This document shows, one piece after another, positions 16,542 through 38,290 of a stretch of 64,000 nt of DNA. The stretch covers positions 1,798,001 through 1,862,000 of the forward strand of contig NZ_CP036319.1 of the NCBI RefSeq assembly GCF_007752935.1. Direction: 5' to 3'. The translations under genes and the position numbers were made by a program. Numbering within the stretch: the stretch's first letter is position 1; each line of letters begins with the position of its first letter. Source of the stretch: Crateriforma conspicua (lineage in GTDB: Bacteria; Planctomycetota; Planctomycetia; Pirellulales; Pirellulaceae). The notes under the pieces were generated by a model that saw nothing but the letters and a program-made list of their open reading frames with translations, did not search any database and was not told the DNA's origin.

Positions 16542-18148
16542 TGTCCGTCGACAATGACTTGATCGATCGCATTCTCGAAGGAGAGGTGTCCGACGAGGAG
16601 GCCGCGGAGTTGCAGAGTTGGCTTCAGGATCAAGAAAACCTCGAACGATTTGCGCTTCGTGCCGAGTTGCATTCGGGCTTGCGGCGTTCTCTGCAGCGAC
16701 AGCTTATTCAGAAGAATGCACTGGATGCGAGCGAAGATAATCATGTCGCTGCGTTCGATTCATCGCAGGAGAAACGACAGGCGTCGGTTCTCCAGTCGCG
16801 AAGGACACTGGGGCTGGGCATAACGGGGCTCGTGACGGCGGCCAGCATTCTCTTTGCCTTCGTGTGGCCTGAAGCCGAATCTGTGCCAAAACAAAAGGTT
16901 GCTGCGGCGGCTAAGATCGTGGGTAACGTCAGCGGTACACTCATGAGAAGCGGTTCGCATTGGGACGACGCTAAGATCCCACCTGGCGATTACGAGCTAC
17001 AGAAGGGATTGTTGAATCTGCAGTTCGGCGGTGGCGTGATGGTCTATATCGAAGCTCCTGCGCATTTCGATGCAGTTAGCGATAAGCGTGTGGTGCTGCA
17101 TAGCGGTCGACTGTCGGCCAGAGTACCTCCCGAGGGTATTGGGTTCACTGTGGAAACTCCCGCAGCGGAGGTCGTCGACTTTGGCACCGAGTTCTGCGTC
17201 GATGCAGAAGCTGGCGCAAGCGAGGTGCATGTTTTTGATGGGCTCGTGCGAGTTCATCCCGGGGCTTTGCAACAGCGTGCCTTGTCGAGGTCCGTTGATT
17301 TGCAGGCATCGCAGGCTGTGCGGATTGCTGACGGCGAAGTTGAGCCCGAGGGCATCACCATCGCAACCGACAGATTCATTCGTGACTTTGACGAACCGAA
17401 GTGGAACTATGCTCGCTTGGTCAAGCGGTTGAAGCCACTGGCCATCTACCGAATGCCAATTCGCGACCGCGGGCTGGTTTCTGAACCGCCCGAATATTCT
17501 GGCATTGTGGTGACCGGGGATGGAAAGCGTCCGCCACATGCCCGTGGTGTGTTCGTGGGCGGTTCTCTTCGAATCGGCGCCGATTCCACCGGTCGCGGAG
17601 GACGGGTTGATTCGCCGCCGGCATTGGGCACGGGGCAATTCTCTCTAGCTTGTTTCGTGTACCTCGAAGCGCCCGCACGCGGCACGATGGTTGCCACGAA
17701 CCTGCATGATGGTCAGGGCAACTTCAGCCTTTCTCTTAATAAGCTTGGTCGGCTGCAGGCCACGGTCAAGAACGACGATGGTGACGCCGTAGTGGACGAG
17801 GCCACGAGTCCTGAACCAGCCGAGAGTGCCCCGGGAACAGGACTCGTGACCTCGTCCACTACAAGCGATTCCGTCCTGCCGCAAGAGACATGGCGGCACG
17901 TCGTTGTGACCGCTGATGGAGAACGATTGCAACTCTACGAAGACGGTACGCTCGTCGCATCGACACCCTGTGCGGCGATGGCGGGCAGTGACTCTGACGC
18001 TACGGTCTGGTTCGGCACGGACCCTAAAGCGATTCAGGTGTGGGATGGTCGGATCGACGAGTTGGCCCTTTTCGACCGAGCACTCAACGAAAATGAAATC
18101 GCGTCACTTTACCGAACTGCTCAAGAAGAGATCGTCAGATCAAGATGA
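16541..18148 (+). CDS. FecR/LamG membrane protein, probable anti-sigma partner, with palindromic-element insertion
   Basis: 535 residues. The cytoplasmic N-terminus (about 1-85) has an anti-sigma-like helix pattern (ILEGEVSDEEAAELQSWL). One membrane segment lies at about 90-109, followed by an extracytoplasmic FecR domain (about 120-240: LPEGDYEL-like start, FTVETPAAEVVDFGTEF) and a C-terminal LamG/concanavalin-like domain (about 340-530: FSLACFVYLEAP, WRHVVVTADGERLQLYEDG). Residues about 417-441 (VVDEATSPEPAESAPGTGLV, then TSSTT) are encoded by a palindromic repeat (17789-17862) placed in frame in a LamG loop. Likely role: sensing a glycan outside and controlling the sigma factor. Confidence 0.88.
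   Translation: MSVDNDLIDRILEGEVSDEEAAELQSWLQDQENLERFALRAELHSGLRRSLQRQLIQKNALDASEDNHVAAFDSSQEKRQASVLQSRRTLGLGITGLVTAASILFAFVWPEAESVPKQKVAAAAKIVGNVSGTLMRSGSHWDDAKIPPGDYELQKGLLNLQFGGGVMVYIEAPAHFDAVSDKRVVLHSGRLSARVPPEGIGFTVETPAAEVVDFGTEFCVDAEAGASEVHVFDGLVRVHPGALQQRALSRSVDLQASQAVRIADGEVEPEGITIATDRFIRDFDEPKWNYARLVKRLKPLAIYRMPIRDRGLVSEPPEYSGIVVTGDGKRPPHARGVFVGGSLRIGADSTGRGGRVDSPPALGTGQFSLACFVYLEAPARGTMVATNLHDGQGNFSLSLNKLGRLQATVKNDDGDAVVDEATSPEPAESAPGTGLVTSSTTSDSVLPQETWRHVVVTADGERLQLYEDGTLVASTPCAAMAGSDSDATVWFGTDPKAIQVWDGRIDELALFDRALNENEIASLYRTAQEEIVRSR
17789..17862. repeat. Palindromic element copy 1, in frame inside the FecR/LamG gene
   Basis: Left arm 17789-17811 and right arm 17840-17862 are reverse complements with one mismatch (GGCC for GGTC); the loop is 28 bases. 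The element adds 25 codons and keeps the reading frame. Confidence 0.92.
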
Positions 18149-18218
18149 CAACGACTGCGCCTTCACGTCCAGCCAACGGAGCACCATCAGTGCATCGTCG
18201 CCAGCCTCCAGGTACGAC

Positions 18219-18273
18219 GTCGTGGGCGATCGTTACGAGTCCAAAACAGGGGATTCGTGACCTCATCCACTAC
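18219..18273. repeat. Palindromic element copy 2, degenerate, upstream of first sulfatase
   Basis: The right arm 18251-18273 (GGATTCGTGACCTCATCCAC, then TAC) has two changes from consensus. The left arm 18219-18242 is visibly eroded. The loop is very short. It ends 20 bases before the sulfatase ATG. Confidence 0.8.
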
Positions 18274-18293
18274 AAAAAATCTATCCCGAAAGC

Positions 18294-19889
18294 ATGAAAC
18301 TTATGAATATAATACACCGTCTTCTTTTCAGCATCGTTGTATTTACCACAACCTGTATTGGCCAACTGGTTGCGGCGAATACGCGACCCAATGTCGTGTT
18401 TCTGGCGGTCGACGACATGAACGATTTTGTCGGATGTCTTGAGTCGCGCCCGGGTGCGATCACGCCAAACATTGATCGGCTTGCCGCTCGTGGCGTGTGC
18501 TTTACCAATGCTCATACCGCCGGTGTGTTTTGTGCACCCAGTCGTGCGGCGATTTTTTCCGGCCAGTACGCATCGACAACCGGATGCTACATGACTCCGA
18601 ACTACTTTGTGCATCATCCGGAAATTGAATCGCTGCAAATGAGCTTTGCCAAAGCGGGTTACACCACGCTGGGCGCTGGCAAGCTGTTTCATCATCCCGC
18701 TGGAGCGATCGACCAGCGTGGTTGGACAACGTTCTTCCTGCGGAACCAGTTCCAGCGAGAAGGCGGTTGGGCTTTGGAATCGTGGAGCAGCGATACGCCT
18801 GTGCCGCAGCCCTTTCCGAACAGTGTTTACAACAAAGGCAAAGAGATCACCGGCGGGCTTTTCCTGGAATGGGGAGCTGTTTCAAACGAACAAGAAGAGG
18901 AGATGGCCGACACGATCCGTTCCAACTGGGCGGTCGACCAGCTGAAACGAAAACACGACAAGCCGTTCTTCCTGGCTTGTGGTTTCTACGCTCCTCATTA
19001 CCCCAACTATTGTCCGCAAAAGTACTTTGATTTGTACGATCGAGACGCCATCGAGACTCCTGCGTTCAAAGAAGATGATCTCGCTGACCTTCCGCAGAAG
19101 ATCATCAAGCAACGACAGAATCGCAAGAAGCAGCACTACGACAAGCTCGTAGCGATGGGAGCATGGAAGGACGCTCTGCACGGATACCTTGCCTGCACCA
19201 GCTATGCCGACGCCATGGTCGGTCGAATTTTGGATGCTCTAGCTGCGAGTCCTTATGCCGACAACACGATCGTCGTGCTGTGGAGCGATCACGGCTATCA
19301 CCTGGGTGAAAAAGGCCAGTGGGGCAAGCACACGTTGTGGGAACGAACCTCCAACGTGCCGTTCGTCTGGGCGGGCCCCGGCGTGGCAAAGGGAGTTCGC
19401 TGCGACGTGACGGTCAGCCTGATCGACATCTATCCAACGCTGGTTGAAACGTGCAACTTGCCGGCGCCGCGTCAGGAGCTGGAAGGCGTTTCGCTGGCAT
19501 CGACACTGCAGTATCCCGGCGATGCCAAAGATCGAACCGTGTATTTGCCCTATATGAACCCCGGTGAATACACAGTGATGAATCGCGATTGGCGTTTCAT
19601 TCACTACGACGACAAGAACCAAGAACTGTACAACGTCAAAGAGGATCCGCATGAGTGGGACAACCTCGCATCCGACCCGCAGCAGGCGGACGTCATCGCC
19701 CGACTACGGGAGTCGGCACCGAAGAAGTTCGCCGATCCGGAACCCAAGCTCAACGCGAGACGTGACCTAGTGGTCGAAGGCGAATCTTTTCGCTGGGAGA
19801 AAGGCGAAGGCAACTATGTGCCACATCCAAAGTATCTGCCTTACACCGATCCGGCGTTAAAGCAAGAGCAATCGAAGCCGCGACGGTAA
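18294..19889 (+). CDS. Sulfatase (iduronate-2-sulfatase-like)
   Basis: 531 residues with a signal peptide (about 1-28). The formylglycine-type active site is CAPSR (Cys80) followed by AAIFSGQ. Other type I sulfatase features are the N-terminal metal site [12 protein letters not shown], the KLFHHP segment and the second metal site [19 protein letters not shown]. It hydrolyses sulfate esters, probably of algal or other polysaccharides, in the periplasm or outside. It requires a formylglycine-generating enzyme, not seen in this window. First of four sulfatases on this strand; a degenerate palindromic element separates it from the FecR gene. Confidence 0.94.
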
Positions 19890-19915
19890 CGACGCATAGA
19901 GAACGATGGGCATTC

Positions 19916-20001
19916 GTAGTGGACGAGGTCACGAGTCCGGCACCATCCATCAGATTTAATAAGCATATTGTTGATCGCGGACTCGTGACCTCGTCCACTA
20001 C
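19916..20001. repeat. Palindromic element copy 3 between sulfatases
   Basis: Perfect 23-base arms at 19916-19938 and 19979-20001 with a 40-base loop. It begins 27 bases after the first sulfatase stop and ends 49 bases before the next ATG. Confidence 0.93.
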
Positions 20002-20050
20002 AAATTGACTGACCGATCGCCCAAGACACGAAAGTGAGAAGCAGTATCTG

Positions 20051-21469
20051 ATGGACAATTTGAGATGTCTGAGTTTGATGCATCAGTATGCAACCGCAGC
20101 AATGCTGTTGTTATTGTTGTCGGGCAGTGTCTTTGGCGATCAAACCGCATCCGAGCGCCCGCCGAACATCGTCTTAATGTTTGCGGACGACCTTGGCTAC
20201 GGAGACATCGGTTGCTACGGACACCCCTACGCTCGAACGCCGGCGATCGACCAACTGGCCAAAGAAGGCACGCGGTTCACTCAGTTCTATGTGACAGGCG
20301 TCACATGTAATCCCAGCCGAACGGGGCTCATGACCGGACTGTTTCCGGCGCGGCTTCCGAAATATGCGGCCGACTTCGGTTTTGGAGACCGCACGACCAT
20401 CACCGAGTTGTTAAAGAAGCGAGGCTACAGCACCGGGCACTTCGGAAAGTGGCACATTGGCCCCCGCGACAGCGACGGCACCTATGGAATCGATTTGGTC
20501 GAGACAATCGGCAAGGCCCGAGACGCAACGAGCGGGAAGACCGGACGCGATCACGATTTGTATTCGGCGGCGATTGATTTCATTCGTGACAATAAGGAAG
20601 GTCCGTTCTACGTCAATATTTGGGGACATGCGACGCATTTTCCCGTCAATACGGCAGATGGTTTGGTTGCCGAATTCAAAGACGTGAAGGTCGACCGAAA
20701 TGACTTCTCGCTGACCATGCAACACAAGTTTGATGAGTGCCAAAAGATCGGCGGCGATCTCGATGAATCCATGCGGCAGTATCTCGGCGATGTCTACCAG
20801 ATCGATTTGAATGTCGGGCGGGTGCTGAAGACGCTCGATGAGTTGAGGCTCCGGGAAAACACGATCGTCGTCTTCTCCAGCGACCACGGACCTGCACCGG
20901 TGATCCTTGGGAAGCAAGGTGCCCGCGAATTCTCGAACAACATGCTGGGTTACGCGGGCGAGTTTCGTGGCGGCAAACACGAGCAATACGAAGGCGGAAC
21001 GCGTGTGCCATTCATCATTCGTTGGCCGGGCCGAGTAAAGGCAGGCAAAGTCGACTCCGCCAATATTGTCTCCTTTGTCGACTGGCTGCCGACACTTTGC
21101 TCGATAGCCGGGATTGAGGAACTGCCGTCGCAACTTGACGGAGAGAACATTTCCGACATCTGGCTTGGTGCCGACCGCCAGCGCACAAAGCCGCTGTTTT
21201 GGAGGGCCAGTTCCACGGGCAGTACTCCCGCGATGCGCGTCGGTAAATGGAAACTGCACTTGCCACGAAAGCAACGCGGCGAACCGGAACTCTACGATCT
21301 TTCCGTCGATCCGAGCGAACGCAACAACATTGCAGAGACTCATCCAGAAGTCGTCGCCAGCCTTGGAAAGTCGCTCCAGGCATGGGTTGCCGAGCTGCCG
21401 GCGGAATACGAAAAGATTGAGAAGACAGAGCCGAAAAAACGAAGCCGTGACCGCAAAAAGAACCGGTAG
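20051..21469 (+). CDS. Sulfatase (arylsulfatase / GalNAc-6-sulfatase-like)
   Basis: 472 residues. The signal peptide ends near residue 29. The metal-binding start is NIVLMFADDLGYGDIGCYG, and the active-site Cys86 lies in CNPSRTGLMTG. Further marks are KWHIGPRDSDG and VVFSSDHGPAP. The Lys-rich C-terminus (KKRSRDRKKNR) is partly duplicated downstream in the relics. The frame includes an alternative ATG ten residues in (MHQYATAAM), which would give a more typical signal peptide. It should act on sulfated sugars together with the other sulfatases here. Confidence 0.94.
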   Translation: MDNLRCLSLMHQYATAAMLLLLLSGSVFGDQTASERPPNIVLMFADDLGYGDIGCYGHPYARTPAIDQLAKEGTRFTQFYVTGVTCNPSRTGLMTGLFPARLPKYAADFGFGDRTTITELLKKRGYSTGHFGKWHIGPRDSDGTYGIDLVETIGKARDATSGKTGRDHDLYSAAIDFIRDNKEGPFYVNIWGHATHFPVNTADGLVAEFKDVKVDRNDFSLTMQHKFDECQKIGGDLDESMRQYLGDVYQIDLNVGRVLKTLDELRLRENTIVVFSSDHGPAPVILGKQGAREFSNNMLGYAGEFRGGKHEQYEGGTRVPFIIRWPGRVKAGKVDSANIVSFVDWLPTLCSIAGIEELPSQLDGENISDIWLGADRQRTKPLFWRASSTGSTPAMRVGKWKLHLPRKQRGEPELYDLSVDPSERNNIAETHPEVVASLGKSLQAWVAELPAEYEKIEKTEPKKRSRDRKKNR

Positions 21470-21480
21470 TTGAAATTCTC

Positions 21481-21538
21481 GTAGTGGACGAGGTTGCCAG
21501 TCCTGTGCAACTTCGGGACTCGTGACCTCGTCCACTAC
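21481..21538. repeat. Palindromic element copy 4
   Basis: Left arm 21481-21503 (with small changes, GGTTGCCAG) and perfect right arm 21516-21538, loop 12 bases. It is part of a roughly 240-base segment that is tandemly duplicated. Confidence 0.9.
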
Positions 21539-21569
21539 GGTCACATGTTCTGATAAATCGCAAAATTAA

Positions 21570-21737
21570 ATGAGACCTTTCATTCAAAATCTAATCGCTG
21601 CGGCCTGTCTCTTGACACTTGGGGGCGAATCCGCCGCGACGGCGCCGGGCGAACGAAAGCCAAAGCGAAATACGAAAAATTTGAAAAGGCAGAGCCGAAG
21701 AAACGAAGCTGTGATAGCAAAAAGAACCGGTAGTTGA
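21570..21737 (+). pseudogene. Internally deleted sulfatase relic 1 (signal peptide joined to sulfatase tail)
   Basis: The frame begins MRPFIQNLIAAACLLTLGG, a signal peptide almost identical to that of the next relic. At about 21650 it runs into a copy of the 3' end of the preceding sulfatase gene (KYEKFEKAEPKKRS in the original frame), which is read out of frame here. The whole catalytic domain is missing. It is best explained by recombination between tandem sulfatase genes. Confidence 0.7.
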
Positions 21738-21743
21738 AATTCT

Positions 21744-21786
21744 CGTAGTCCTGTGCAACTTCGGGACTCGTGACCTCGTCCACTAC
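21744..21786. repeat. Palindromic element copy 5, left arm mostly deleted
   Basis: Right arm 21764-21786 is perfect. The left arm is reduced to GTAGTCC at about 21745-21751. The loop is the same as in copy 4, showing that the two derive from a duplicated segment. Confidence 0.88.
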
Positions 21787-21817
21787 GGTCACATGCTCTG
21801 AAAAATCGCAAAATCAA

Positions 21818-22231
21818 ATGAGACCTTCCGTTCAAACTCTAATCGCTGCGACCTGTCTCTTGGCACTTGGGGCCGAGTCTGTCGCGACGGCTCCGGGCGC
21901 GAAATCGCTTCACGAGGCCATCTACTATCTGCGTGGTCGAGGGGCTCAGGCGATCCGTTTTGGCGACTGGAAGTATCGCATTGCTACTGAGAAGTCGCCG
22001 AAAGAGAAGAAATCAAAACGGAAGGCCGCAAGCGTCACAAAGCCGGAGAAGATCAACGTCGAGACGCTCCACAACCTGAGCAACGACATCGGTGAGCAGA
22101 CGAACCTGATTGATGAACATCCCGAGATCGCACAGCGTTTGAAACGACAACTCGCAACGTTCGAGACGGATCTCAGAAAGAACTTACGTCCCGCGGGAGT
22201 TGCCAGCGGTGTTTCGACCGGAGGGGATTAG
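21818..22231 (+). pseudogene. Internally deleted sulfatase relic 2 (signal peptide joined to sulfatase C-terminus)
   Basis: 137 codons from the ATG at 21818. The signal peptide [20 protein letters not shown] is followed directly by the last roughly 110 residues of a sulfatase ([40 protein letters not shown]). The CxPSR active site and both metal sites are absent. The frame is open, so a small exported protein could still be made, but it cannot be a sulfatase. Confidence 0.75.
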
Positions 22232-22280
22232 CCACAGATGAACACGGATAAACACAGATGAACACGGATAAACACAGATG
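22231..22280. repeat. GxxExxY-flanking repeat, left side (tandem units)
   Basis: GCCACAGATGAACACGGATA followed by further AACACAGATG / AACACGGATA units. The last unit contains the ATG (22278) that starts the GxxExxY gene. Related sequence in inverted orientation follows the gene at 22651. Confidence 0.88.
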
Positions 22281-22649
22281 AATGAGAGCGAGTTGAATGC
22301 GTTGACGGAGAAGATCATTGGGTGCGCGTTTCAGGTTTCAAATACGTTGGGAGCGGGTTTTCTGGAGAAGGTCTATGAGAATGCGCTGGCGATTGAGCTC
22401 CGCAAGAACGGTCTTGAGTTGAAGCAGCAGGCCCCGATCAAAGTAATCTACGGAGAGACGGTGGTTGGGGAATACTTCGCGGATCTCCTTGTGTCGGATT
22501 TGGTAATCGTTGAAATTAAAGCAGTGAAAGAGATTAGCGATGCATTCGCGGCTCAGTGCCTCAACTACTTAAAAGCAACCGGACTTCCGATTTGCCTCCT
22601 GCTGAATTTCGGTAAACCTCGCATAGAAATAAAGCGTTTTCGCCTTTAA
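22278..22649 (+). CDS. GxxExxY protein
   Basis: 123 residues with the family signature GFLEKVYENAL (G-x2-E-x2-Y) and the PD-(D/E)xK-like stretch YFADLLVSDLVIVEIKAVKE. GxxExxY proteins are widespread small proteins of uncertain function; the D...E-x-K pattern suggests a nuclease-like fold. The start codon is inside a tandem repeat unit and the gene is bounded by inverted copies of the same repeat, as if it were a small cassette inserted among the sulfatases. Confidence 0.88.
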   Translation: MNESELNALTEKIIGCAFQVSNTLGAGFLEKVYENALAIELRKNGLELKQQAPIKVIYGETVVGEYFADLLVSDLVIVEIKAVKEISDAFAAQCLNYLKATGLPICLLLNFGKPRIEIKRFRL

Positions 22650-22650
22650 C

Positions 22651-22715
22651 CATCTGTGTTCATCTGTGGCCCAACCACCTTGGACCGCGTGATTCGCCAC
22701 AGATGAACACAGATG
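22651..22715. repeat. Perfect inverted repeat after the GxxExxY gene
   Basis: CATCTGTGTTCATCTGTGGC at 22651-22670 and its exact reverse complement at 22696-22715, 25 bases apart. The first arm is inverted relative to the repeat preceding the gene. A further copy (22904-22923, one change) lies inside the signal-peptide region of the next sulfatase gene. Confidence 0.92.
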
Positions 22716-22864
22716 AAGAAACTAGAACTCGTCGCGACAAGCCGGGTGATCACATTGAGGGCATGGTCCTTCGCCTTCAATAATTCGTATTCATCAGTTT
22801 TTTTGTGGCCAATCGCTTCCCCAAACTGATCCACAATCGCATCAATGAAGGACACGCAAACTCA

Positions 22865-24427
22865 ATGAAATCTAGACGCATATTTTCTCGGGCTATCCGT
22901 GTGCATCCGTGTTCATCTGTGGCCAATCTACTTCTGCCTTTGATTCTCGCGACTGTTTTTGCTTTGTCCCATTCACCGGCGCGAGCTGAATCCGACAAGC
23001 CGATGAACGTGCTGTTTCTCGTCGCCGATGATTTGAACAGTTGGCTGCTTGAGGATGCTGAGCGGTACGCAGGCAAAGTCATTGCCCCCAATCTGCGAAG
23101 TTTGGCCGCCAGTGGTGTCAACTTCACACGGGCATATACGGCGGCTCCGGTTTGTTCGCCTTCTCGCACCGCGTTCTTTTCAGGTGTAACTCCCTGGAAA
23201 TCGGGTATCTACAACAACGCGCAGACCATCAGCACAAGTGAGGTCATGAACCAGGAGGCCGTGCTGTCACTGGCCGGATTGTTCAAGAAGAGCGGCTACG
23301 GCACCTTCGGCTACGGCAAGATCACCCACGGCTGGGACCAGAGGGAAAACTGGGACGTTAAGTTTGGCCACAAGCGAGACCCGGCTCCGCCGGGAGCACC
23401 CCTAGCAAAACTCAGCGGAGGAGAACAGGACTGGGGTCCCATTCATCTCACCGAAGAACAGATGAATGACACGCTCGGGGCCGACAGGGCGGTTGCTGTT
23501 CTGCAGGGACAACACGACAAGCCATTTTTCCTGGCTTATGGCTCATTCAATCCGCACATGCCCTGGTATGTCCCGAAGAAATACTTCGACATGTACCCGC
23601 TGGATCAGGTAGTTCTTCCGGAATTGCGGGAGAACGATCTGGATGACCTTCCTCCGCTCGCCAGAGCAGTCAGTGACGGGATCGGGAGCTTCGCCGACAA
23701 GGTCATTCAGGCAGGTAAACACAAAGAAGCGGTTCAGGCCTACCTGGCCACGACCACGTATGTCGACACCCAGATAGGACGCGTTCTCGATGCCCTCGAA
23801 AAAAGCCCCTACAACGACAACACCATTGTCGTCTTCCTCACCGATCACGGGTTTCACCTTGGTGAAAAACATCACTGGCAAAAGACAACCCTTTGGGAGG
23901 AGGGAACGCACGTCTTGTTGATGTTTCGCGCGCCGGGAGTCACCGAAGCCGGGGGGGTGTCGCAGCGGTTCGTTTCCCTGATGGACATCTATCCGACTCT
24001 TGCCGAACTCTGCGGCCTCACGCCGCCCGCGACCATCGATGGACGCTCCTTAGTTCCGCTGCTCAAAGACCCGAAAGCTCCGTGGGAAAGCACCGCCATC
24101 ACTGGATTGTGCGATAAAACCAAGACGGACATGGCCTATATCAGCATCCGCCATGAACTCGGCCGCTACACCCGCTACGGGGCCGACCAGGAGGAATTCT
24201 ATGACGCCTCGAGGGATCCCCATGAATGGAACAACCAGATCGACAACCCGAAATACGCAAACACCGTTGATAAACTCCGGGCCCTGGTCCCTCGTTTCGC
24301 CGAGGCCGCCGAACCTCTTCCCTCGGCCCTGACCAAGAAACGCAAGGAGTCTCGAAGAGGGACTAAGAACTTACCGGCCGTAGTGGACGAGGTCACGAGT
24401 CCTCGTTCTGATTCTGTCGGTGAATAG
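22865..24427 (+). CDS. Sulfatase (iduronate-2-sulfatase-like) with repeat-derived ends
   Basis: 520 residues from the ATG at 22865. The signal region includes [15 protein letters not shown], encoded by a copy of the GxxExxY-flanking repeat. The metal site is [10 protein letters not shown], the active-site Cys97 lies in [11 protein letters not shown], and the second metal site is [19 protein letters not shown]. The last residues ([15 protein letters not shown]) come from the left arm and loop of a palindromic element, which also provides the TAG stop. The catalytic core is complete, so the enzyme is probably active despite both ends being made from repeats. Confidence 0.93.
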
Positions 24428-24449
24428 GACTCGTGACCTCGTCCACTAC
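24380..24449. repeat. Palindromic element copy 6, overlapping the sulfatase 3' end
   Basis: Perfect arms 24380-24402 and 24427-24449, loop 24 bases. The sulfatase stop codon (24425-24427) falls at the loop/right-arm junction. The next gene starts 25 bases after the element. Confidence 0.93.
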
Positions 24450-24473
24450 GGACCATTGAAAACAGGAGTAAAC

Positions 24474-25730
24474 ATGAACCCTTCACGTCGAACGGCGTTG
24501 AAATCGATCGGCGCGACCACCACGCTGGCTGCGTCCGGTCTGGTGCCATCAATGATCTATGCCGCACCGTCAACATCCGGCAGCGACAAGTTACGTGTCG
24601 GACTAATTGGCGCCGGAGGGCGAGCCAAATGGCTGACACGTGCCTTGGGTCGCGAATCCCATCGAGCCGAATTGGTTGCCGTCTGCGATTGCTACCTGCC
24701 GCAGATCGATGCACTTGCGGCTGACAACAAAAACGATCCACGGGCCGGTGATTCGTGGAAGCGGTATCAGAAATACGAGCAGATGTTCGATTCTGAAGAG
24801 CTCGACGCGGTGATAATCGCGACGCCCGATCACGTGCGCGTGCGTGCAGCCATGATCGCCTGCGCCAAGGGGCTGGATATCTACGCGGAAAAGCCACTGA
24901 GTTTCAGCATTCCCGAAGGTCGGGCTCTGGTCAAAGCAGTGCGAAAACACAAACGTGTGCTGCAAGTTGGTACGCAACAACGCAGCACACCGATCAATCA
25001 ATATGCCTGCGAGTTCGTCCGCGAAGGTGGACTCGGAAACGTCAATACGATCCTCGTCAAGAATTACTCAGGCTCTCGGCCTGCGACGGGGCTCGAGCAG
25101 CAACCCATCCCCGAAGGCATGGATTGGAATCGTTTTTGTGACCAAGCAAAGCTGCTTGACTATCACGAACGACTTCATCGTAGGTGGCGGAGTTACGACG
25201 CATTCACAGGCGGACCGATTTGCGATCGTGGTTCGCACGCATTGGACATGGTTCACCTTGCCATGGGGTGGGAGAAAGTCGCGCCGACGCGGATCGAACC
25301 CACCACCGAAGCGAAAGACTACTGGGATCGCGGTGTGAGGCTTTATTACCCGGATGGCACCGTTATTCGGCTGGAAAGTGCGGATGGTCCCGCGTTCGGC
25401 GGCATATTCATCGGCCAGCAGGGCAAACTCGAAATCAATCGAGGACGCTTCGCGTGTAATCCGAAGGACTTACTCGCTCCATTCACCGGGTCACAAACGG
25501 AATCGCACGTCGCAAACTGGCTGGACTGCATCGAAACCCGTGAACAGCCCAATGCGCCGGTGGAAGTCGGCCATCTGATTAGCAGCGTCGCGCACCTGAT
25601 CAATCTCTGTCGGATTACCGGTCGCACGATCAATTGGGACGCGGACAACGAGCAGATCATCGGCGATAAGGCGGCCAATGCAATGTTGACCAAGGAACGA
25701 CGTCCCCAGTTTTCTCTTCCCAATGTTTAA
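24474..25730 (+). CDS. Gfo/Idh/MocA-family oxidoreductase, Tat-exported
   Basis: 418 residues from the ATG at 24474, preceded by AGGAG. A twin-arginine signal ([20 protein letters not shown]) is followed by the Rossmann NAD(P) motif [13 protein letters not shown], and by [14 protein letters not shown] with the conserved EKP. The C-terminal substrate domain holds [20 protein letters not shown]. These dehydrogenases oxidise or epimerise sugars. Its place between sulfatases suggests processing of desulfated sugar units. The longer open frame upstream is only palindromic-element sequence. Confidence 0.92.
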
Positions 25731-25752
25731 GCGGAAACGCCGACGAGAAGCC

Positions 25753-25822
25753 GTCGTGGACGAGGTCACGAGTCCTGCTCACCGACGGAATCAGAACGAG
25801 GACTCGTAACCTCGTCCACTAC
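25753..25822. repeat. Palindromic element copy 7
   Basis: Arms 25753-25775 and 25800-25822 with one substitution in each (GTCGTGG; CGTAACC), loop 24 bases. It fills most of the gap between the oxidoreductase and the DUF1080 gene. Confidence 0.92.
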
Positions 25823-25846
25823 GATCGTTTATCAAGAGAAAATCAG

Positions 25847-28160: not shown

Positions 28161-28497
28161 CCACACCAGCGTGGTTTCTTCAGTCCAGAACCGCGATGGT
28201 CCATCACAGCATTAGCGCTCATCACGAAGCCAGGAAAACGGCGAAGCAGGAAGGATCTTTGGCTTATTTTCGCACTTCGCATATCGCCTGGCTAACGCGT
28301 TCGGCGCCGGCAAAGCCATACTTGCAAAACTTCAAGGTTGCGATCTTCTTTCACTGAGGTGGACTCAAGTTTTGCCCACAATAAACCCGGATGAGCCTAT
28401 CTTCCCCGGGGGCAGCGTGTGCTGAGGGGAATCGTTGACTGGTCTACGAGGTATTTGATCTCTGCCGAGTTTGTCGGGCATTGTGCGTGCTTGAGAA
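28161..28497. other. Convergent intergenic region, nothing recognised
   Basis: About 340 bases between the last sulfatase and the minus-strand hypothetical gene. Short open frames only; no clear repeat, terminator stem or RNA gene was seen. Confidence 0.3.
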
Positions 28498-29592: not shown

Positions 29593-29670
29593 GATCTCTC
29601 GGTCTTCACGGGTGCGTGGTTTTCAGAGCGGATGATGTTGATTCAGCCGAGCTTTTGAATACTGAACGAT

Positions 29671-31599: not shown

Positions 31600-31695
31600 C
31601 GTCGGATGCTCGCTGAAAAATGGTGTCTCGATTGTTGCTTGGCGTTTGTTCGGCTTTGGGACGGAGACGGCCGCAACCGATCGCGGTCTCCGGCG

Positions 31696-32094
31696 CTATC
31701 TCGTCACGAAATAGATTGGTCTCTGTCTTGCGGTCTTTGGAGAGGTCTGGCCCATAATTAGAGTCAAACGCAACCATTCACCTCGCGTGACCGAATCGGT
31801 AACGACAGGGACTTTGATGCCGCGACGCTTCGCCAGCGACTCCCATCGTTGGCCTGTCTGGCGACTGAGTGTTTCGTCCAAGCGAGCCGTGTGTCCCGGG
31901 AATGCTTCGTAGTATTGTCCAATGATGTTGTCGCCTCGCGTGCCGCACGTGTCCGCCGGCGTGCCGCCATAGACAACAATATCATAGGTTTCGTCGGCGG
32001 CAATCGCTTGAGGTGCCGGCGGTTTCATCCAGAGCAAAGAGCAATAGCAGGCGAGCCGAAGTATGCTTGGCAGCGAGTGATGTTGCGTGCTCAT
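31696..32094 (-). pseudogene. Probable relic: FAD-oxidoreductase N-terminus joined to an unrelated C-terminal piece
   Basis: 132 codons. A signal-like N-terminus leads to DETYDIVVYGGTPA, the first strand of the FAD-dependent oxidoreductases common in planctomycetes, but the expected GxAAA helix never follows. The rest (NIIGQYYEAFPGHTARLDET; RGIKVPVVTDSVTRGEWLRL) is from something I do not recognise. It could be a short real gene. An internal deletion joining two genes is the simpler reading. Confidence 0.45.
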
Positions 32095-32531
32095 CGGTTC
32101 TGTTGCAGTGGACTGTATGAGTCATTGTTCGGACTGCACATCATAAACCCTGGCCGATTTGTCGTGTTGCTCCTTGCCGTGGATGGTGGAAGTGATTTGC
32201 AAGTTTCACATCGCCATGAGATCGCTGGCGAACGATGGCCGGTCCCCGTGATGTGACTTGGAATGCGGGGCATTGGTGATCGTTCATTAGGATGACGTCT
32301 GCTTCGACGGTCATCTGCCTCGCGACACCGGAATGCCTGTATGGCTGCGTGAAATCAGCTCGCGTGAGCGAATGGCCGATTGCAGCGAGATGAGCTTGAA
32401 CAATGGAATTCGCCAGCCATTTTGGTTTCCATTTGCCGGTTTTTGCTTTTATCGGTGGGCCGAATGCGGGTGCGATACAATTGAAAGCTGCACGTTTACA
32501 AACGCTTGGGCCGGGGCGATGGATTTGTCAG
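32095..32531. other. Divergent intergenic region, no gene recognised
   Basis: About 440 bases between the minus-strand relic and the plus-strand cytochrome gene. The cytochrome frame is open back to 32403, but that part lacks a signal peptide and is probably untranslated. Confidence 0.3.
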
Positions 32532-33905
32532 ATGCACGACGTCAGATGCTGGGGCGCGGTCATCACTTTTGCGGGGATGCTAGTGACCGGGGCCGCTCAG
32601 GAACCAACGCCCGAGTCGATATTCGAGACGCGTTTGAAGCCGATTTTTGATTCGCCCAATCCATCAAGCTGCGTCCAGTGCCATCTTTCCGCCGTCGACT
32701 TGAAGGACTACATCCTTCCCTCCAGTCGTGAAACGTTTTTGTCGCTGCGAGAACAAGGACTGATCGACACCGAACGCCCCGGTGAATCCAAAATCCTGCA
32801 CCTGATTTCCATGGGCGATTCTGATCCCGATGCACTAGCCCGGCGGATTCACGCAAAGAATCGCAAGGCGGAGTACGACGCCTTTTCGTATTGGATTGTC
32901 GCTTGTTGTCAGGACCAGGATCTGCTTTCGGCCCGCCCGTCGGTAGGCAATCAGAAGGCAGGGCCAAGTCATTCAGATGACTTGATTCGCCACACACGAA
33001 AAGATCGTGTTCTGGATTCATTCGTCAGAAATGTCTGGTCCCAGCGGATGCGATGTTTCCCCTGCCACACGCCGGGCGAATTGGACGCGGACAATCCGAT
33101 GCATCAAAAGCCCATCGAAAGGCATCGAGACTTCGTCAAGCAGTACGGAGCACGCATGAACCTCTTCAAGGAGACGCCGTGGGAGACGATGCGTTCGTTG
33201 GTTGCCAGCAGCCGGATCGTTGGAAGCGAACAGAAACGCAAAGGCACGGTTCTGCCTTTGATCAATCTTAAGAATCCCACCTTGAGCTTGTTGATCCAAA
33301 AGCCAACAGCAAAACTTCCGCCGAAGACCTCGGAAGGAAAAATCGGCGAACCGTCTTCGCAAATTCCGGTGTCACACATGGGCGGTATCAAGATGCACAA
33401 AGGCGATCAGTCATACAAGGCTTGGTTGCATTGGCTGGAGGATTACGCAGCTTCCGTTTCGGGTGGCTACGAGTCCGACGATGAACTTCCCGAGGACAAT
33501 TGGTATCCGACCCAGCACGTTGTACGTATCAAAGGCGTTCCAGAATCGTGGCCAAATCTGGCAACCGTTCAAGTGTTCGTGCACCGTTGGGACGAGAAGA
33601 CCGATCGTTGGGCGGATGAACCCATCGCATTCACTCAGTCACTGGTCACGCCGCGCAAAATCGTCAACGGATCACTCTTCGTCTTGGCAAAGTCCGAACA
33701 ACGCGACCAGCTGGATCCAGCCGGTGTCACGCTTGAACCGTGCAAGGTGCAAATACGTCTTTTTCTTGATCACGACAACACGCTCGCGGAATCGCCTACT
33801 CGCCTGCTGAACAATCGCGACCCTGATGCCACATCTGTGTTCGATGCGGTGTTTGGAATCGGATTCAAGAATGCGGATGTAATCGAGACGCTTGAGATTC
33901 CGTAG
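32532..33905 (+). CDS. Exported planctomycete-type cytochrome c-like protein
   Basis: 457 residues from the ATG at 32532, which begins a signal peptide (WGAVITFAGMLVTGAAQ). Two haem-binding CxxCH motifs are present: CVQCH near residue 41 and CFPCH near residue 174. The spacing and the surrounding FETRLKPIFDSPNPSS resemble planctomycete cytochromes that precede PSD domains, but no such domains follow. The C-terminal part (DDELPEDNWYPTQHVVRIKG; LEPCKVQIRLFLDHDNTLA) is unidentified. Probably a periplasmic electron carrier. Confidence 0.75.
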   Translation: MHDVRCWGAVITFAGMLVTGAAQEPTPESIFETRLKPIFDSPNPSSCVQCHLSAVDLKDYILPSSRETFLSLREQGLIDTERPGESKILHLISMGDSDPDALARRIHAKNRKAEYDAFSYWIVACCQDQDLLSARPSVGNQKAGPSHSDDLIRHTRKDRVLDSFVRNVWSQRMRCFPCHTPGELDADNPMHQKPIERHRDFVKQYGARMNLFKETPWETMRSLVASSRIVGSEQKRKGTVLPLINLKNPTLSLLIQKPTAKLPPKTSEGKIGEPSSQIPVSHMGGIKMHKGDQSYKAWLHWLEDYAASVSGGYESDDELPEDNWYPTQHVVRIKGVPESWPNLATVQVFVHRWDEKTDRWADEPIAFTQSLVTPRKIVNGSLFVLAKSEQRDQLDPAGVTLEPCKVQIRLFLDHDNTLAESPTRLLNNRDPDATSVFDAVFGIGFKNADVIETLEIP

Positions 33906-34286
33906 CCGTTTCGCTTTCAGGTCGGTGTCGATTCAAAACGCTTGCGCATCTGCGCCGGGCCGGCCGGTTTCGGGGGTTTCCGCGGGAAGAGTGATCGCGA
34001 TCGGTTCATGCGCCACGGATCCCGACTGCGTCCGACAGGGCGCGACGTTTGATTGTTGGATTTTCGTTCTCTTTGGAGGATGTGGTTTCGAAATTGCCGC
34101 GCCGTCGGGCATCGGCTCCTTCGTGCCAGGCGCCGAATTACCCGCGGTCCGACAGGCATGAAGTTTGCAGCTTGTCGCGATCTGGCGCAAGCCAGATTTT
34201 CTGCGTCTGGAGGATCGCCCGCTTGCGATGCCCGATCGGCGTCGTGTGCGATGCACCAGACCCACTGTTCCCCGAAGGAGCCTGAC
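33906..34286. other. Intergenic region before the copper-binding protein
   Basis: About 380 bases. A GAAGGAG ribosome site lies at 34274-34280 just before the next ATG. No other signal was identified. Confidence 0.3.
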
Positions 34287-34718
34287 ATGGACCGACGAAA
34301 CGTGATTTCCGCCCTTGCCGCTGCACCCGCCGCCGTGATGGCCTCAACCGCAGTGCGAGCCGATGATCATCAACACAGTCATTCGCACACCGACGGATTG
34401 GATCTCCGCTGCGCGTTGACTTGCAGCGACTGCGTCGCGCACTGCGAAAACTGTGTTGCGGCATGCCTGGAAGCTCTGGCTGATGGCATGGACGACATGA
34501 TGGATTGCATCAAGATCTGCCAGGACTGTGCCGACATCTGCCGAGCGTGCGCGGCCAGCGATGCACGTGGCGGTCCGATGTCCGCATCGATCATGAAGCT
34601 GTGCATCGAAAGTTGTAAAAGGTGTGTCGCCGAGTGCGAAAAGCACGACCATTCCGAATGCCAGGCTTGTGCGAAAGCGTGTCGGGCATGCATCGAAGCG
34701 TGCCAGGCAGAGCAGTGA
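34287..34718 (+). CDS. Four-helix-bundle copper-storage (Csp-like) protein, exported
   Basis: 143 residues from the ATG at 34287 after a GAAGGAG site. A twin-arginine-type signal (MDRRNVISALAAAPAAVMAS) is followed by a His-rich stretch (DDHQHSHSHTD). The body carries 20 Cys mostly spaced Cx2C, Cx3C or Cx4C on amphipathic helices (CALTCSDCVAHCENCVAAC; CIKICQDCADICRACA; CQACAKACRACIEAC). This is the Csp/DUF326 pattern, in which Cu(I) ions fill the core of the bundle. Export via Tat is as in Csp1. It complements the metal-resistance locus at the left of the window. Confidence 0.88.
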   Translation: MDRRNVISALAAAPAAVMASTAVRADDHQHSHSHTDGLDLRCALTCSDCVAHCENCVAACLEALADGMDDMMDCIKICQDCADICRACAASDARGGPMSASIMKLCIESCKRCVAECEKHDHSECQACAKACRACIEACQAEQ

Positions 34719-34725
34719 TCGTTGC

Positions 34726-34987
34726 TAAGTAGGCGGACAGATTCTTCTAAGTTCGGTAACCCGACGCGTAGGTTTTGAAGTCGCGTTTATCTGGTAACCC
34801 GACGCGTGAGCGGGGGAAAAAGCTGTTGGCATCGACTCGTTCACGCTTCGGGTTACCGAAAAGAACGATGCCTCGGGTAAAAGCGCAACTTCAAAACGCA
34901 AAAGCGAGGAACGAACCGGCGAAGTACGTGGTCTCTCGCTTACGCGTCGGGTTGCCATTTGTCGCAAAACTCCTGTCCGCCTGCTTA
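34726..34987. repeat. Four-level nested palindrome
   Basis: Four pairs of inverted arms enclose one another: 34726-34740/34973-34987 (TAAGTAGGCGGACAG, 14 of 15), 34755-34770/34941-34956 (GGTAACCCGACGCGTA, 15 of 16), 34772-34788/34879-34897 (GTTTTGAAGTCGCGTTT, imperfect), and 34793-34812/34838-34857 (GGTAACCCGACGCGTGAGCG, 18 of 20). Levels 2 and 4 share the same core, as if one element had inserted into another. It starts eight bases after the Csp gene stop. Confidence 0.88.
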
Positions 34988-35263
34988 ACGCGATATCGCC
35001 CCCGCAGCACGAACCGCGTCACGTCCCGCCGGCCTACTTCAAGATTTGCCTGCCCTGTCGACGCGATCGACAACGTGGGGCGTTGAACGGGCGTGTATCT
35101 AACGGATGTATCTTGCCGTCGGTAGTGGTGCTGTGCGGTCTCGAATGACTCTTCTATGTCCGGTTCCGACCGGGGCATCGTTGCCCATTGTCAGACGCGA
35201 AACGGTGTCTGCTTCCCAAGCACCTAGAATGCCATAACGGACATTCAATCAAGGGTTTGAGGT

Positions 35264-35911
35264 ATGACACGCAAAATGTTTCATCTGGGGGTGCTGGTGG
35301 GGGCCGCGGTGCTCGGGACCGCCGCGTGGACGATGACGGCGAGAGCCGGATACGAGTCAGCGGAGTACAAGGTCGTTGAAACCGATGGCGATATCGAAAT
35401 CCGCGAATACCCCGATCTGATGCTGGCGGCGACAAGCTCGAAGCTGGATTCGCAGGGGCGGGATGGCAGTTTCATGCGGCTGTTCCGATACATCAGCGGA
35501 AATAACGAGAACGACCAAAAGATCGCCATGACGACGCCGGTTTTCATGGAAGGCGATAACGGTTTGTCGGACGTCTCGATGGGATTTGTGATGCCCAAGG
35601 AAGTGGCGGTCGAAGGCGTGCCGGATCCCAAGAGTGATGGGGTCGAGATCCGCCGACGTGAAAGTGGCCGCTTTGCCGTCATTCGCTTCTCGGGTCGGAT
35701 GGATTCCAAACTCGCAAAGAAGCAAGAGGCAAGGTTGCGGGATTGGATGAACGCCCGTGGGCTTGAGGGAGAAACGACTGCGGAAGCCGCTGGGTACGAT
35801 CCGCCGTTCACGCCCGGGCCGCTTCGCCGAAACGAGATCCTGATCCGGTTGAAGCAATCCAGCGACGAAACGCCGTCGGTGGACCGGCCGATGCGACATG
35901 GGGACCTGTGA
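35264..35911 (+). CDS. SOUL/HBP-family heme-binding protein
   Basis: 215 residues with a signal peptide (about 1-28). The SOUL domain spans most of the rest (YESAEYKVVETDGDIEIREY; FMRLFRYISGNNENDQKIAM; TTPVFM; FAVIRFSGR). SOUL proteins bind haem or tetrapyrroles; the exported bacterial members have no settled role. A GAGGT ribosome site precedes the ATG. The Lacal_2735-type gene follows 65 bases after the stop. Confidence 0.9.
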   Translation: MTRKMFHLGVLVGAAVLGTAAWTMTARAGYESAEYKVVETDGDIEIREYPDLMLAATSSKLDSQGRDGSFMRLFRYISGNNENDQKIAMTTPVFMEGDNGLSDVSMGFVMPKEVAVEGVPDPKSDGVEIRRRESGRFAVIRFSGRMDSKLAKKQEARLRDWMNARGLEGETTAEAAGYDPPFTPGPLRRNEILIRLKQSSDETPSVDRPMRHGDL

Positions 35912-35976
35912 AGTCAATTGATTTCTTTCGGTTGGCTATCTGCTTCTTTCAAAACCCTCGACGGAGACCACCAGCG

Positions 35977-36135
35977 ATGTTTGGAAATCGCAAAGACAAT
36001 CTGCAGGCAAAGTACAACAAGCTGATGCAAGAGTCGTATGAACTCTCGACCGTGAATCGGAAAAAGAGCGACGAAAAGCGTGCCGAGGCCGAAGAGATTG
36101 GGCGACAAATCGATGAACTGGAGAAGCAAGCTTAA
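35977..36135 (+). CDS. Lacal_2735-family small protein
   Basis: 52 residues from the ATG at 35977: MFGNRKDNLQAKYNKLMQES, then YELSTVNRKKSDEKRAEAEE and IGRQIDELEKQA. This is the short helical hairpin of the Lacal_2735 family, function unknown. The frame is open back to 35908, but family length and an ACGGAGA ribosome-like site support the internal start. Confidence 0.75.
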   Translation: MFGNRKDNLQAKYNKLMQESYELSTVNRKKSDEKRAEAEEIGRQIDELEKQA

Positions 36136-36187
36136 TCCTGTGGTGGCGGGTTCATGTGTGCTTGCGGAACGGTGAGTTGGTGGAGTT

Positions 36188-36258
36188 GGACTGAGCGTTC
36201 GTGACCTCGTCCACCACGTGCATATTGGCGGCAAGGGACTCGTGACCTCGTCCACCAC
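36188..36258. repeat. Palindromic element copy 8, two right arms in direct orientation
   Basis: Two copies of the right arm, 36188-36217 (interrupted: GGACTGAGCGTTCGTGACCT) and 36236-36258 (GGACTCGTGACCTCGTCCAC, then CAC), lie head to tail instead of inverted. Both have CCACCAC for CCACTAC, so one probably duplicated from the other. They sit upstream of the next gene. Confidence 0.85.
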
Positions 36259-36281
36259 GTTTATTTGCTGAGGACTGAACG

Positions 36282-37445
36282 ATGACCTATGCCCGCGCTC
36301 GTTTGCTACTCGGCATGTCCGGTGTTGGTTTGATCGTCGTGCTAAGCACGATTCTGCTGCTGACGCAGTACCCGCTTGAAGTCCTGCCCGACTCGCAGTC
36401 TTGGAGCGGCGGTGATTTGACCGCGCTTGTGCTGCTGTTTGGTTGTCTGGCCGCTGTGTTATTCCCGATGGACTTGCTGGGCGGGTTCTTGCTTCCGAAC
36501 CATTGGAGGCCAAACACGATCTCGCTGAAGAAGTTTGCGGCAGGATGGTTTCGTGGCGTGCTGGTTCAGGGAACGCTCTTCGTCGCGGCCAGCCTGTTGA
36601 TCCTGTTGACCGGACGCTGGTTCGGGACCGCGGGTGCAGTGGTGGCGATCGCAGGCTTCGCGATCCTTCTTGTCGGTGTACAGTTGCCGATCGCCAAGTT
36701 TGTGGGAGCACTGAGGAGTCGCGCGGCAGATGACGGGGAAATCGACGCGAAGCTTGAAAAAGCTCGTTCGATCGTTGCGGCTTGGGGTTGGAAGCCGCGT
36801 CCGACGACGACACTGCAGCATTACGACCCCGGCTTCACCGGCGGCATTGTCGGTCTGCCCGGAATGGAGACCGTGGTGTTGCCGGCAGACACGATCAGAA
36901 AATTATCGCCAGACCAGCTAGCGATTGTGATTGCGCGACGACTGGAAGCGATTCAAAGTGGCAGCCGAACACGTGGGCTGTTGCTGGCACTTGGGTGGGT
37001 GGTGGTAGGGTTCGCGTTGTCGACATCGTTGCCGGCAGCCGGCGTGACCAGCGTTGCGGGGCTGACAATGACATGCCTGGGCTTCACGCTCTGGACATTT
37101 TTTGGCTTGCTGACGTTGCCGACGCTCAGTCGCCAGGCTTCGTACGCGATCGACGGACAGGTTTTATTGTCGGGCGTTTCACCGGAGATACTGCAGCAAA
37201 CGGTGAAGACGCTTGATGTTCTGCAGGACGATGAGCCGCGACGATCCGCATTGATTGAAACCATTTTCCATCCCGTTCCCAGCGTCGACAATCGTCGTTC
37301 CCCGACGCCCGGTGGCGTCCCGATCGCGTGGCATGCCGCTCGCATCACGCTGTTCGTTTCCTGGGCTTGCATGGGGATGCTGGTCCGAGCCGTTCACTGT
37401 AACGTCGGCCGACCTGAACTGTGGGTGTTGTTGCCGACCGATTGA
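36282..37445 (+). CDS. M48-like membrane protein lacking the HExxH zinc site
   Basis: 387 residues. Five or more membrane segments (about 8-30, 45-65, 95-112, 115-135, 235-290) surround a soluble region typical of M48/HtpX peptidases (WGWKPRPTTTLQHYDPGFTG; VVLPADTIRKLSPDQLAIVI). Where active relatives have HExxH after that helix, this protein reads ARRLEA (about 219-223), so the zinc ligands are missing. It is probably a catalytically dead paralogue with a structural or regulatory role. The final residues around 370-387 may be out of the family alignment. Confidence 0.65.
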   Translation: MTYARARLLLGMSGVGLIVVLSTILLLTQYPLEVLPDSQSWSGGDLTALVLLFGCLAAVLFPMDLLGGFLLPNHWRPNTISLKKFAAGWFRGVLVQGTLFVAASLLILLTGRWFGTAGAVVAIAGFAILLVGVQLPIAKFVGALRSRAADDGEIDAKLEKARSIVAAWGWKPRPTTTLQHYDPGFTGGIVGLPGMETVVLPADTIRKLSPDQLAIVIARRLEAIQSGSRTRGLLLALGWVVVGFALSTSLPAAGVTSVAGLTMTCLGFTLWTFFGLLTLPTLSRQASYAIDGQVLLSGVSPEILQQTVKTLDVLQDDEPRRSALIETIFHPVPSVDNRRSPTPGGVPIAWHAARITLFVSWACMGMLVRAVHCNVGRPELWVLLPTD

Positions 37446-37655
37446 ATTCGGGCATTTCGATGTACGCCGAAATTGTCTTCGCAAACGACTGGACTCGATT
37501 TGGTCGTCGACCCTGCAACACCTGGCGATTTGACTTCGCTTGTTTAGGTTAAAGCCGGTTCTCTGTCCCCGGCGGCCTCCTGCATACTACAATTCGACTT
37601 GCGTAGCGGTCGTATTTCGGATGTGGGAACTTTGAGCGGAAGGCAAGTCGAAGGC

Positions 37656-38234
37656 ATGCACAGGGCGGAGGATGCCGGATCCAAAGGGCAGGCCGCCCTG
37701 GAAACGGTCTTTGGTTTTTCGCAAGACGACCTGGCAGTCAATCGTTCGGGTGAACTTTCGGCGACTCAGAAGGATCAGATCGCACGTGCACACTACGCCA
37801 ACTCGCGTTTCGCTTGGATTGCCTTTTTGATTGTGTTCGGCGTCGCTTTCTTTGGCTTCTGTGCCGACATGCTTCGCAGGGATACCTTCGGGGCGAGAGC
37901 GTTGGCGGCGTACGCCGGTGTCACGATGCTTTTCGCCCTGATCCTTTGGGGATTCATTCTTTATCACCGGAATCAGATGAAGCGAACGCTTCGGGATGGA
38001 AGAACGTTCCCGGTGAAGGGCAAGATCCAGCTATACACCAAACGCAGCGAAAAGCTCATGCATCGGTACTTTTGTATTGGCGATCATCCATTCCAAGTGG
38101 AGCGGTACGATCACTTTGTGTTGCTGCAGGAGTCTGGATTAGCGGGCCAGGAAGCCATCATGTATGTGTCGACGCCGCGGAAGGCCGTTCAGTCGGTTGA
38201 TTTGGCCAGTCACTCTGGTCGTGGGCAAAGTTGA
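37656..38234 (+). CDS. Hypothetical membrane protein
   Basis: 192 residues from the ATG at 37656, after a GCGGAAGG ribosome-like site; the frame is open to a TTG at 37599. Two membrane segments (about 50-70 and 85-105) are followed by a C-terminal soluble domain (FPVKGKIQLYTKRSEKLMHR; PFQVERYDHFVLLQES) of unknown family. The N-terminal QVEGMHRAEDAG is not a signal peptide. No function assigned. A palindromic element lies just after it. Confidence 0.6.
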   Translation: MHRAEDAGSKGQAALETVFGFSQDDLAVNRSGELSATQKDQIARAHYANSRFAWIAFLIVFGVAFFGFCADMLRRDTFGARALAAYAGVTMLFALILWGFILYHRNQMKRTLRDGRTFPVKGKIQLYTKRSEKLMHRYFCIGDHPFQVERYDHFVLLQESGLAGQEAIMYVSTPRKAVQSVDLASHSGRGQS

Positions 38235-38239
38235 AAATC

Positions 38240-38290
38240 GTAATGGAGAAGCGTCCAGGCGGCAGGGGGACTCGTGACCTCGTCCACTAC
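38240..38290. repeat. Palindromic element copy 9, supplying a stop codon
   Basis: Right arm 38268-38290 is perfect; the left arm (38240-38256) is eroded. On the minus strand the arm's GTAG gives the TAG stop (38287-38289) of the thiamine-binding-type gene. Confidence 0.87.

Follow-up and report, generated by a model that had tools for sequence, protein, structure and literature searches.

Introduction

Between the sulfatase genes of one stretch of the Crateriforma conspicua genome (contig NZ_CP036319.1, positions 1,798,001 to 1,862,000; these 64,000 nucleotides are called the window hereafter), palindromic sequences are scattered, and the question is what kind of element they are and how they came to be there. 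A preliminary description had listed nine loci with 23-base arms around variable loops and had compared them with repetitive extragenic palindromes (REPs) and with miniature inverted-repeat transposable elements (MITEs). In our analysis, there is little doubt that the elements are non-autonomous REP doublets similar to REPINs (REP doublets forming hairpins), in which two REPs placed face to face make the visible palindrome. GTAG-tagged REPs and REPINs have been well described together with their REP-associated tyrosine transposases, or RAYTs (PMC3733652, PMC3116915). We do not claim the first description of the family GTAG-T-GGACGAG, which the consensus table of PMC3733652 (its Figure 1) may already list. 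The doublet family is real and well supported; it has an unusual tandem G-A stem and a divergent RAYT branch, and it looks orphaned in this genome. The 13-base core was not found in the running text of the literature searched, and among the matches listed for planctomycete REPs, RAYTs or palindromic repeats, PMC3733652 and PMC6006769 were clearly on the subject.

The repeat unit and its copies

With GTAGTGGACGAGGTCACGAG as the query and up to 3 mismatches, the window contains 15 arm matches against 0.01 expected (mean of 100 dinucleotide shuffles), all within 17789-38290. The same 15 arms were obtained when up to 5 mismatches to the 23-mer were tolerated, a level at which the reversed consensus had no match in the window. 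When the whole genome, a single contig of 7,182,433 bp, was searched with GTRGTGGAYGAGGNNACGARTCC at up to 3 mismatches, it yielded 21 arms, whereas the reversed control had no match. Of these arms, 15 are in the window and 6 elsewhere, at 2.08, 2.61, 2.78 and 6.87 Mb. The repeat family is real, and its concentration in the sulfatase region is real and not exclusive. The earlier statement that no copy lies outside 17.8-38.3 kb is thus true for the window (15 of 15 arms) and not for the genome, where the recommended scan brought up, among the 21 arms, doublets megabases apart. Each of the nine loci does carry the arm sequence, and the positions given for them are correct or only slightly off, by no more than a few bases. 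Two facing arms, as had been described for all nine, are found at five; one has a degenerate second arm, two have a single arm and one is a head-to-tail pair.

The 23-nt arm is made of the tag GTAG, a T and the hairpin GGAC-GA-G[GYNA]C-GA-GTCC. The stem of this hairpin, GGACGAG[GYNA]CGAGTCC, has five Watson-Crick pairs interrupted by a tandem G-A/A-G step. Tandem G-A motifs with a stacked step are known. All 15 window arms start with GTAG, GTGG or GTCG, followed by T. For a larger set, 411 arms from the window, the rest of the genome and relatives were collected at up to 4 mismatches, leaving aside loci L001-L028 and L041, which repeat the genome's own sequence; removal of repeats reduced the 411 arms to 394. 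Tag positions 1-4 are G in 388, T in 373, A in 374 and G in 377 of these 394 arms, counts to be read in the light of the arms having been picked because they resemble the consensus. Where neighbouring arms are no more than 150 bp apart, they stand head-to-head in 115 cases, head-to-tail in 79 and tail-to-tail in 3 (117, 84 and 3 before repeats were removed). Inverted doublets are therefore over-represented, and the spacer between paired arms varies widely in length.

In these features, the family is like the GTAG REP superfamily, which has the GTAG tag, a short stem-loop, mostly head-to-head dimers and a RAYT flanked by the same repeat, and which is intergenic, sometimes intragenic or stop-codon-supplying (PMC3733652). 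In GTAG REPs generally, the tag, which may be degenerate, stands 0-2 nt ahead of the stem-loop, and the stem is 5-13 bp long and in some families contains mismatches or bulges. It also resembles the REPINs of P. fluorescens, inverted REP doublets with a spacer that were proposed as the replicative unit and tied to specific RAYTs (PMC3116915). The doublets of this genome differ in being few, in clustering within a single 20-kb region and in lacking a RAYT of their own. Two other kinds of site were rejected as candidates: an operator, as the spacer length varies so widely, and an attC or dif site, whose anatomy does not match.

Constraint on the single arm

Two stem pairs vary in a compensated manner. 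In the 394 arms, pair 9/20 is C-G in 362, T-A in 14, T-G in 8, C-A in 2 and other in 8, and pair 12/17 is G-C in 369, C-G in 14 and other in 11; the window arm 18251-18273 itself carries the compensated T-A pair (GGAT..ATCC). Among the 253 position pairs of 143 distinct arms, 9/20 and 12/17 rank second and third in mutual information, behind two adjacent loop bases. None of 2000 shuffles, which ignore relatedness, equalled the mutual information of either pair. Double changes at 9/20 or 12/17 make up 21 pair-cases, spread over 20 of the 115 head-to-head doublets; in all 21, the double change is missing from the partner arm. With variants this rare, arms that vary independently would show the same, and there is no sign of kept pairing between arms. 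The constrained unit is best read as the single arm. Because double changes keep the pairing within and not between arms, the long palindrome, which had been taken as the unit, is probably a by-product of two inverted copies of it.

These results bear on the idea that the elements are cis-acting RNA hairpins or terminators, selected to tune the sulfatase operon, with a functional stem from arm to arm. The sites do lie between co-directional genes, close to where genes end, and for the five two-armed loci, RNA folding with 10-base flanks gives about -41 to -62 kcal/mol. However, the double changes preserve pairing inside the arms and not across them, no U-run was seen by eye after the elements (for the same reason, a terminator was rejected as their origin), and other genomes have up to 239 copies. 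Moreover, the same gene pairs occur without elements in relatives: G045 and G126 carry no REP in the gene pairs of the 24380 and 25753 sites, and G105, G081 and G036 carry none in that of the 18219 site. We regard this idea as very improbable. A search of Rfam over 16500-39500 gave no match at gathering scores.

A partner transposase in relatives

Comparing REP-bearing loci with Y1 proteins gave one weak match, a 194-aa protein in the relative G045 (L060 2363-2947), which has REPs directly on both sides. The cognate RAYT is an HUH/Tyr protein of about 190 aa. Residues D65, H66 and H68 (D65 H66 x H68) and Y127 in YxxRNPER are invariant in 11 of 11 aligned members, and by analogy they would have catalytic roles. 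All 11 match the NCBIfam RAYT model NF047646 at E <= 0.01; an equivalog assignment to it is not made. As for likeness to the REP/RayT system of E. coli (TnpA-REP, rayT b0228), the two proteins align across the HUH motif and the region of the catalytic Tyr, and E. coli TnpA-REP recognises GTAG (PMC6006769). The same REP stands on both sides of the RAYT in seven loci (G045, G126, G011, G085, G013, G102 and G050; the G085 frame has one stop), and on the one readable side of an eighth at a contig end. In the congener G011, the gene lies at C12:156794-157348, and copies of this REP cluster around it.

By analogy with the E. coli and Pseudomonas systems, such a RAYT, as an HUH single-strand transposase with one catalytic tyrosine, would recognise GTAG and the hairpin in single-stranded DNA, presumably with cleavage and strand transfer, and might then copy or move the doublet to new sites. 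The distribution of the two partners is consistent with this. In 149 genomes of the same family, the RAYT (E <= 1e-10) occurs in 37 and the REP in 44: both in 27, the RAYT only in 10, the REP only in 17 and neither in 95 (odds ratio 15, p 1.5e-10, with relatedness ignored and RAYTs with other REPs included).

The preliminary description had noted no REP-type transposase in the window, which proved correct, since none of the genome's 12 matches to Pfam Y1_Tnp (PF01797) and not its single RAYT match falls there. The RAYT that it suggested seeking exists in relatives, flanked by the same REP. In C. conspicua itself, the cognate RAYT was not found: the search for this kind of RAYT had one match, at 6,543,082, with another REP on its flanks, and the congener G011 has a counterpart of that gene as well (L281). 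Because this only RAYT is 49% identical and goes with a different REP, the doublets look orphaned, and the copies are probably relics or visitors. RAYT-plus-REP units missing from REP-bearing species, with REPs outliving the RAYT, are already in print (PMC3733652, section 16).

The Pfam Y1_Tnp family did not lead to the partner enzyme. This REP was absent from the loci examined for all 12 matches in the genome and was found at 1 of 29 in G090, G102 and G013, beside a decayed gene; in 12 further genomes, it was at none of 30 loci among 112 matches listed. These negatives are not counted against a RAYT, because the real partner scores below the Y1_Tnp cut-off. A site near a Y1 gene at 4.45 Mb in the genome was rejected as a chance partial match to the REP.

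Another gene is seen near these repeats. In G045, an RlaP-type gene (RNA repair pathway DNA polymerase beta family, PF10127; L060 1560-2312, minus strand) lies between the RAYT and a REP doublet, and RlaP-like sequence with REPs nearby is also present in C. conspicua (L029 5981-8006, with an interruption of about 1.3 kb) and G011 (L216 11131-11844).

Occupied, empty and copied sites

Besides the vacant gene pairs named above, several sites differ between relatives. The doublet in the FecR/LamG open reading frame (ORF) is in frame and adds 21 residues; the same place is filled in G105 and empty in the orthologs of G081 and G036, and in G137 a doublet lies at a different point of the homologous frame. 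Around 2.08 Mb, where DNA identity is 77-79%, C. conspicua is without two doublets that G011 has, and G011 is without one that C. conspicua has; both flanks can be aligned at only one of the differing doublets. At 19916, G105 and the homologous cluster of G011 likewise have doublets between these two sulfatase genes. No REP follows the first sulfatase in G081, G045, G126, G137 and G036; the next gene differs there, so these are not strict empty sites. The G011 counterpart of 24380 has a doublet with another spacer. Furthermore, the doublets at 24380 and 25753 are alike in arms and spacer in inverse orientation (inverted match of 73 nt, 93%), and their flanks are unrelated: one whole doublet was copied to either side of a Gfo/Idh/MocA gene. 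On sequence comparison, the FecR/LamG, 18219, 24380/25753 and 2.08 Mb sites and the copied doublet favour a mobile unit.

Could recombination and local tandem duplication alone account for the spread of the elements here, without any transposase that acts on the family? The 21481/21744, 36195/36236 and 38268 units do involve local duplication. The loci 21481 and 21744 are alike because both are copies from a local tandem duplication of about 250 bp. Yet a whole doublet was copied inverted between unrelated flanks, doublets lie megabases apart, and a RAYT has the same REP on its flanks in seven loci of relatives, which makes this explanation very unlikely. The tandem duplication spans window positions 21401-21899; it includes a REP doublet and overlaps the start of a sulfatase C-terminal fragment (21770-22231).

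In another reading, the elements are classic MITEs that belong to a DDE transposon producing target-site duplications, and the arms are its terminal inverted repeats; the inverted arms do enclose a variable spacer. However, single and head-to-tail arms are common, each arm has a GTAG tag and an internal hairpin, and similarity of the copied doublet ends at the arm ends with no flanking duplication visible by eye. The linked enzyme is of the HUH/Tyr type; no DDE enzyme was found linked, though no systematic search for one was made. A MITE origin is extremely unlikely. Thus, of the mobile REP/MITE-like element first proposed, the REP form stands, by anatomy, RAYT partner and empty sites, and the MITE of a DDE transposon is not supported.

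Several points weigh against REP doublets moved by a RAYT. No transposition was observed, and the evidence for mobility is comparative (empty sites and the copied doublet). Orthologous empty sites, on whose existence the preliminary description had made mobility depend, were found; the loci 36188 and 38240, however, are shared with the congener G011 and have no empty site, and therefore copies can also stay put. At 38240, G011 has one additional tandem unit (a 37-bp alignment gap). In the 143 distinct arms, the stem pairs 6/23, 7/22 and 8/21 show too little variation to lend support. The RAYT reaches 35.2 bits (E 1e-8) against NF047646, where the cut-off is 80 bits, and scores under the Pfam Y1_Tnp cut-off. 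It differs from E. coli RayT in that the profile match between the two is moderate (58.7% probability, E 9.5e-5), and its profile found no match at E 0.1 among sequences of solved structures. In the RAYT tree, support for the REP-sharing group is only 0.75. Finally, 17 of the 44 REP-bearing genomes are without a RAYT of this kind, including G090 (239 arms) and G006 (113); another enzyme may be in use there, or the copies may be old.

Distribution and RAYT branches

At up to 2 mismatches, 44 of the family's 149 genomes, C. conspicua included, contain the arm. Of 290 genomes sampled from the rest of the phylum, one contains it at up to 1 mismatch. Copy numbers reach 239 in one relative (G090), with 113 in G006 and 13 in G129. 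The 80 arm-bearing loci listed from named records are planctomycete or of unnamed bacteria, many of them Pirellulaceae. The one genome outside the family, G428, belongs to another family of the same class and has a single REP doublet (C1:2679678-2679745), for which transfer is possible. Two further arrangements were seen: five arms in direct tandem with a 31-bp period in a metagenome-assembled contig (L077 2561-2707), and a REP doublet within a longer palindrome with arms of about 20 bases, adjoined by a decayed transposase gene (L198 1220-1370).

A hairpin common to the upstream and downstream sides was found in 41 of 47 RAYT rows (46 genes, as L270 and L296 are the same gene; this REP included), compared with 5 of 400 random places. 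Many other RAYTs are flanked by other GTAG-type hairpins, whose stems vary and stay largely paired. The closest sister RAYTs have flanking REPs with fully Watson-Crick stems, unlike the tandem G-A/A-G step found here. In a tree built without L295 (short) and L270 (duplicate), the RAYTs with this REP cluster, with the GGACGTG type nested among them. Tentatively, the REP stem might be a readable code for its RAYT in this clade, two Watson-Crick steps having turned into tandem G-A/A-G in one branch with the transposase changing alongside; we would not put this above a possibility. The series of RAYT/REP pairs within one family (stems GGACGAG, GGATCTT, GGACTTC, GGACGTG, CCGGAGTC and others, the loops by eye mostly GNNA-like) could help to show what a RAYT recognises in its hairpin, and the orphan doublets offer a test case for spread by gene transfer and persistence without an own transposase. 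If neither use holds, there is still a well-documented REP family in a phylum with few described.

Other RAYT-like genes occur in the same genomes. R. baltica has several REP families and many tyrosine transposase genes with flanking repeats (PMC3733652). In G090, larger RAYT-like proteins with RADEAG or RSDEAG near the N-terminus (L193, L196, L199, L201, L203 and L205) are encoded by genes that have long repeats on their flanks, and three of these genes lie near one another on a single contig. Such an arrangement has been described for TIRYT elements, RAYT-like genes with long terminal inverted repeats (PMC3733652, section 16). By eye, the repeats flanking the G090 genes bear no resemblance to this REP.

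Origin of the cluster

The first sulfatase (18294..19889) is 91% identical to that of G045 and 87% to those of G081 and G105, all of other genera, and 84% to that of the congener G011, while the DNA to the right of the sulfatase block is 92-97% identical to G011. In G105, the FecR/LamG gene and two sulfatases follow one another as they do here, and REPs stand at the same two places. We infer that the cluster is best explained as a REP-bearing sulfatase block passed between lineages, plus the local tandem duplication. The sulfatase pattern could also stem from an old gene duplication with loss. Composition has no clear break along the window (GC 0.54-0.58) and neither supports nor excludes block transfer.

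The sites and their neighbouring genes

The nine sites and the genes around them are given in Table 1. Two of the nine loci overlap ORFs, and the other seven lie outside the ORFs scanned. The left arm at 24380 is inside a sulfatase ORF, whose stop codon falls in the element.

Table 1. REP sites and adjoining genes in the window
Feature	Position	Strand	Arms
REP doublet, head-to-head, in frame within FecR/LamG ORF 16538-18148	17789..17862		17789-17811 (+), 17840-17862 (-)
REP doublet, left arm degenerate	18219..18273		right arm 18251-18273 (-)
REP doublet, lying between two sulfatase genes	19916..20001		19916-19938 (+), 19979-20001 (-)
REP doublet, left arm damaged	21481..21538		21481-21503 (+), 21516-21538 (-)
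Single REP arm; deletion derivative in tandem copy of 21481-21538	21744..21786	-	21764-21786
REP doublet	24380..24449		24380-24402 (+), 24427-24449 (-)
REP doublet, inverted copy of the 24380 unit	25753..25822		25753-25775 (+), 25800-25822 (-)
Two REP arms, same orientation, head-to-tail, 41 bp apart	36188..36258	-	36195-36217 (decayed), 36236-36258
Single REP arm	38240..38290	-	38268-38290
ORF with FecR and LamG domains, intragenic doublet inside	16538..18148	+	
Sulfatase gene, REPs on both flanks	18294..19889	+	
Sulfatase gene, REPs on both flanks	20051..21469	+	
Sulfatase ORF, 3' end enters the 24380 doublet	22805..24427	+	
Gfo/Idh/MocA oxidoreductase ORF between two inverted copies of one doublet	24420..25730	+	

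The Gfo/Idh/MocA ORF more likely starts near 24474 than at its listed position. Two further repeat types were seen in the window. Repeats of the type CCACAGATGAACACGGATAAACACAG, at 22226-22286, 22651-22678, 22690-22707 and 22904-22931, surround a small PD-(D/E)XK nuclease ORF (22278-22649, PF13366), and a second type, GGTAACCCGACGCGT... with ...ACGCTTCGGGTTACC, is present at 34755-34956 and 38671-38744.

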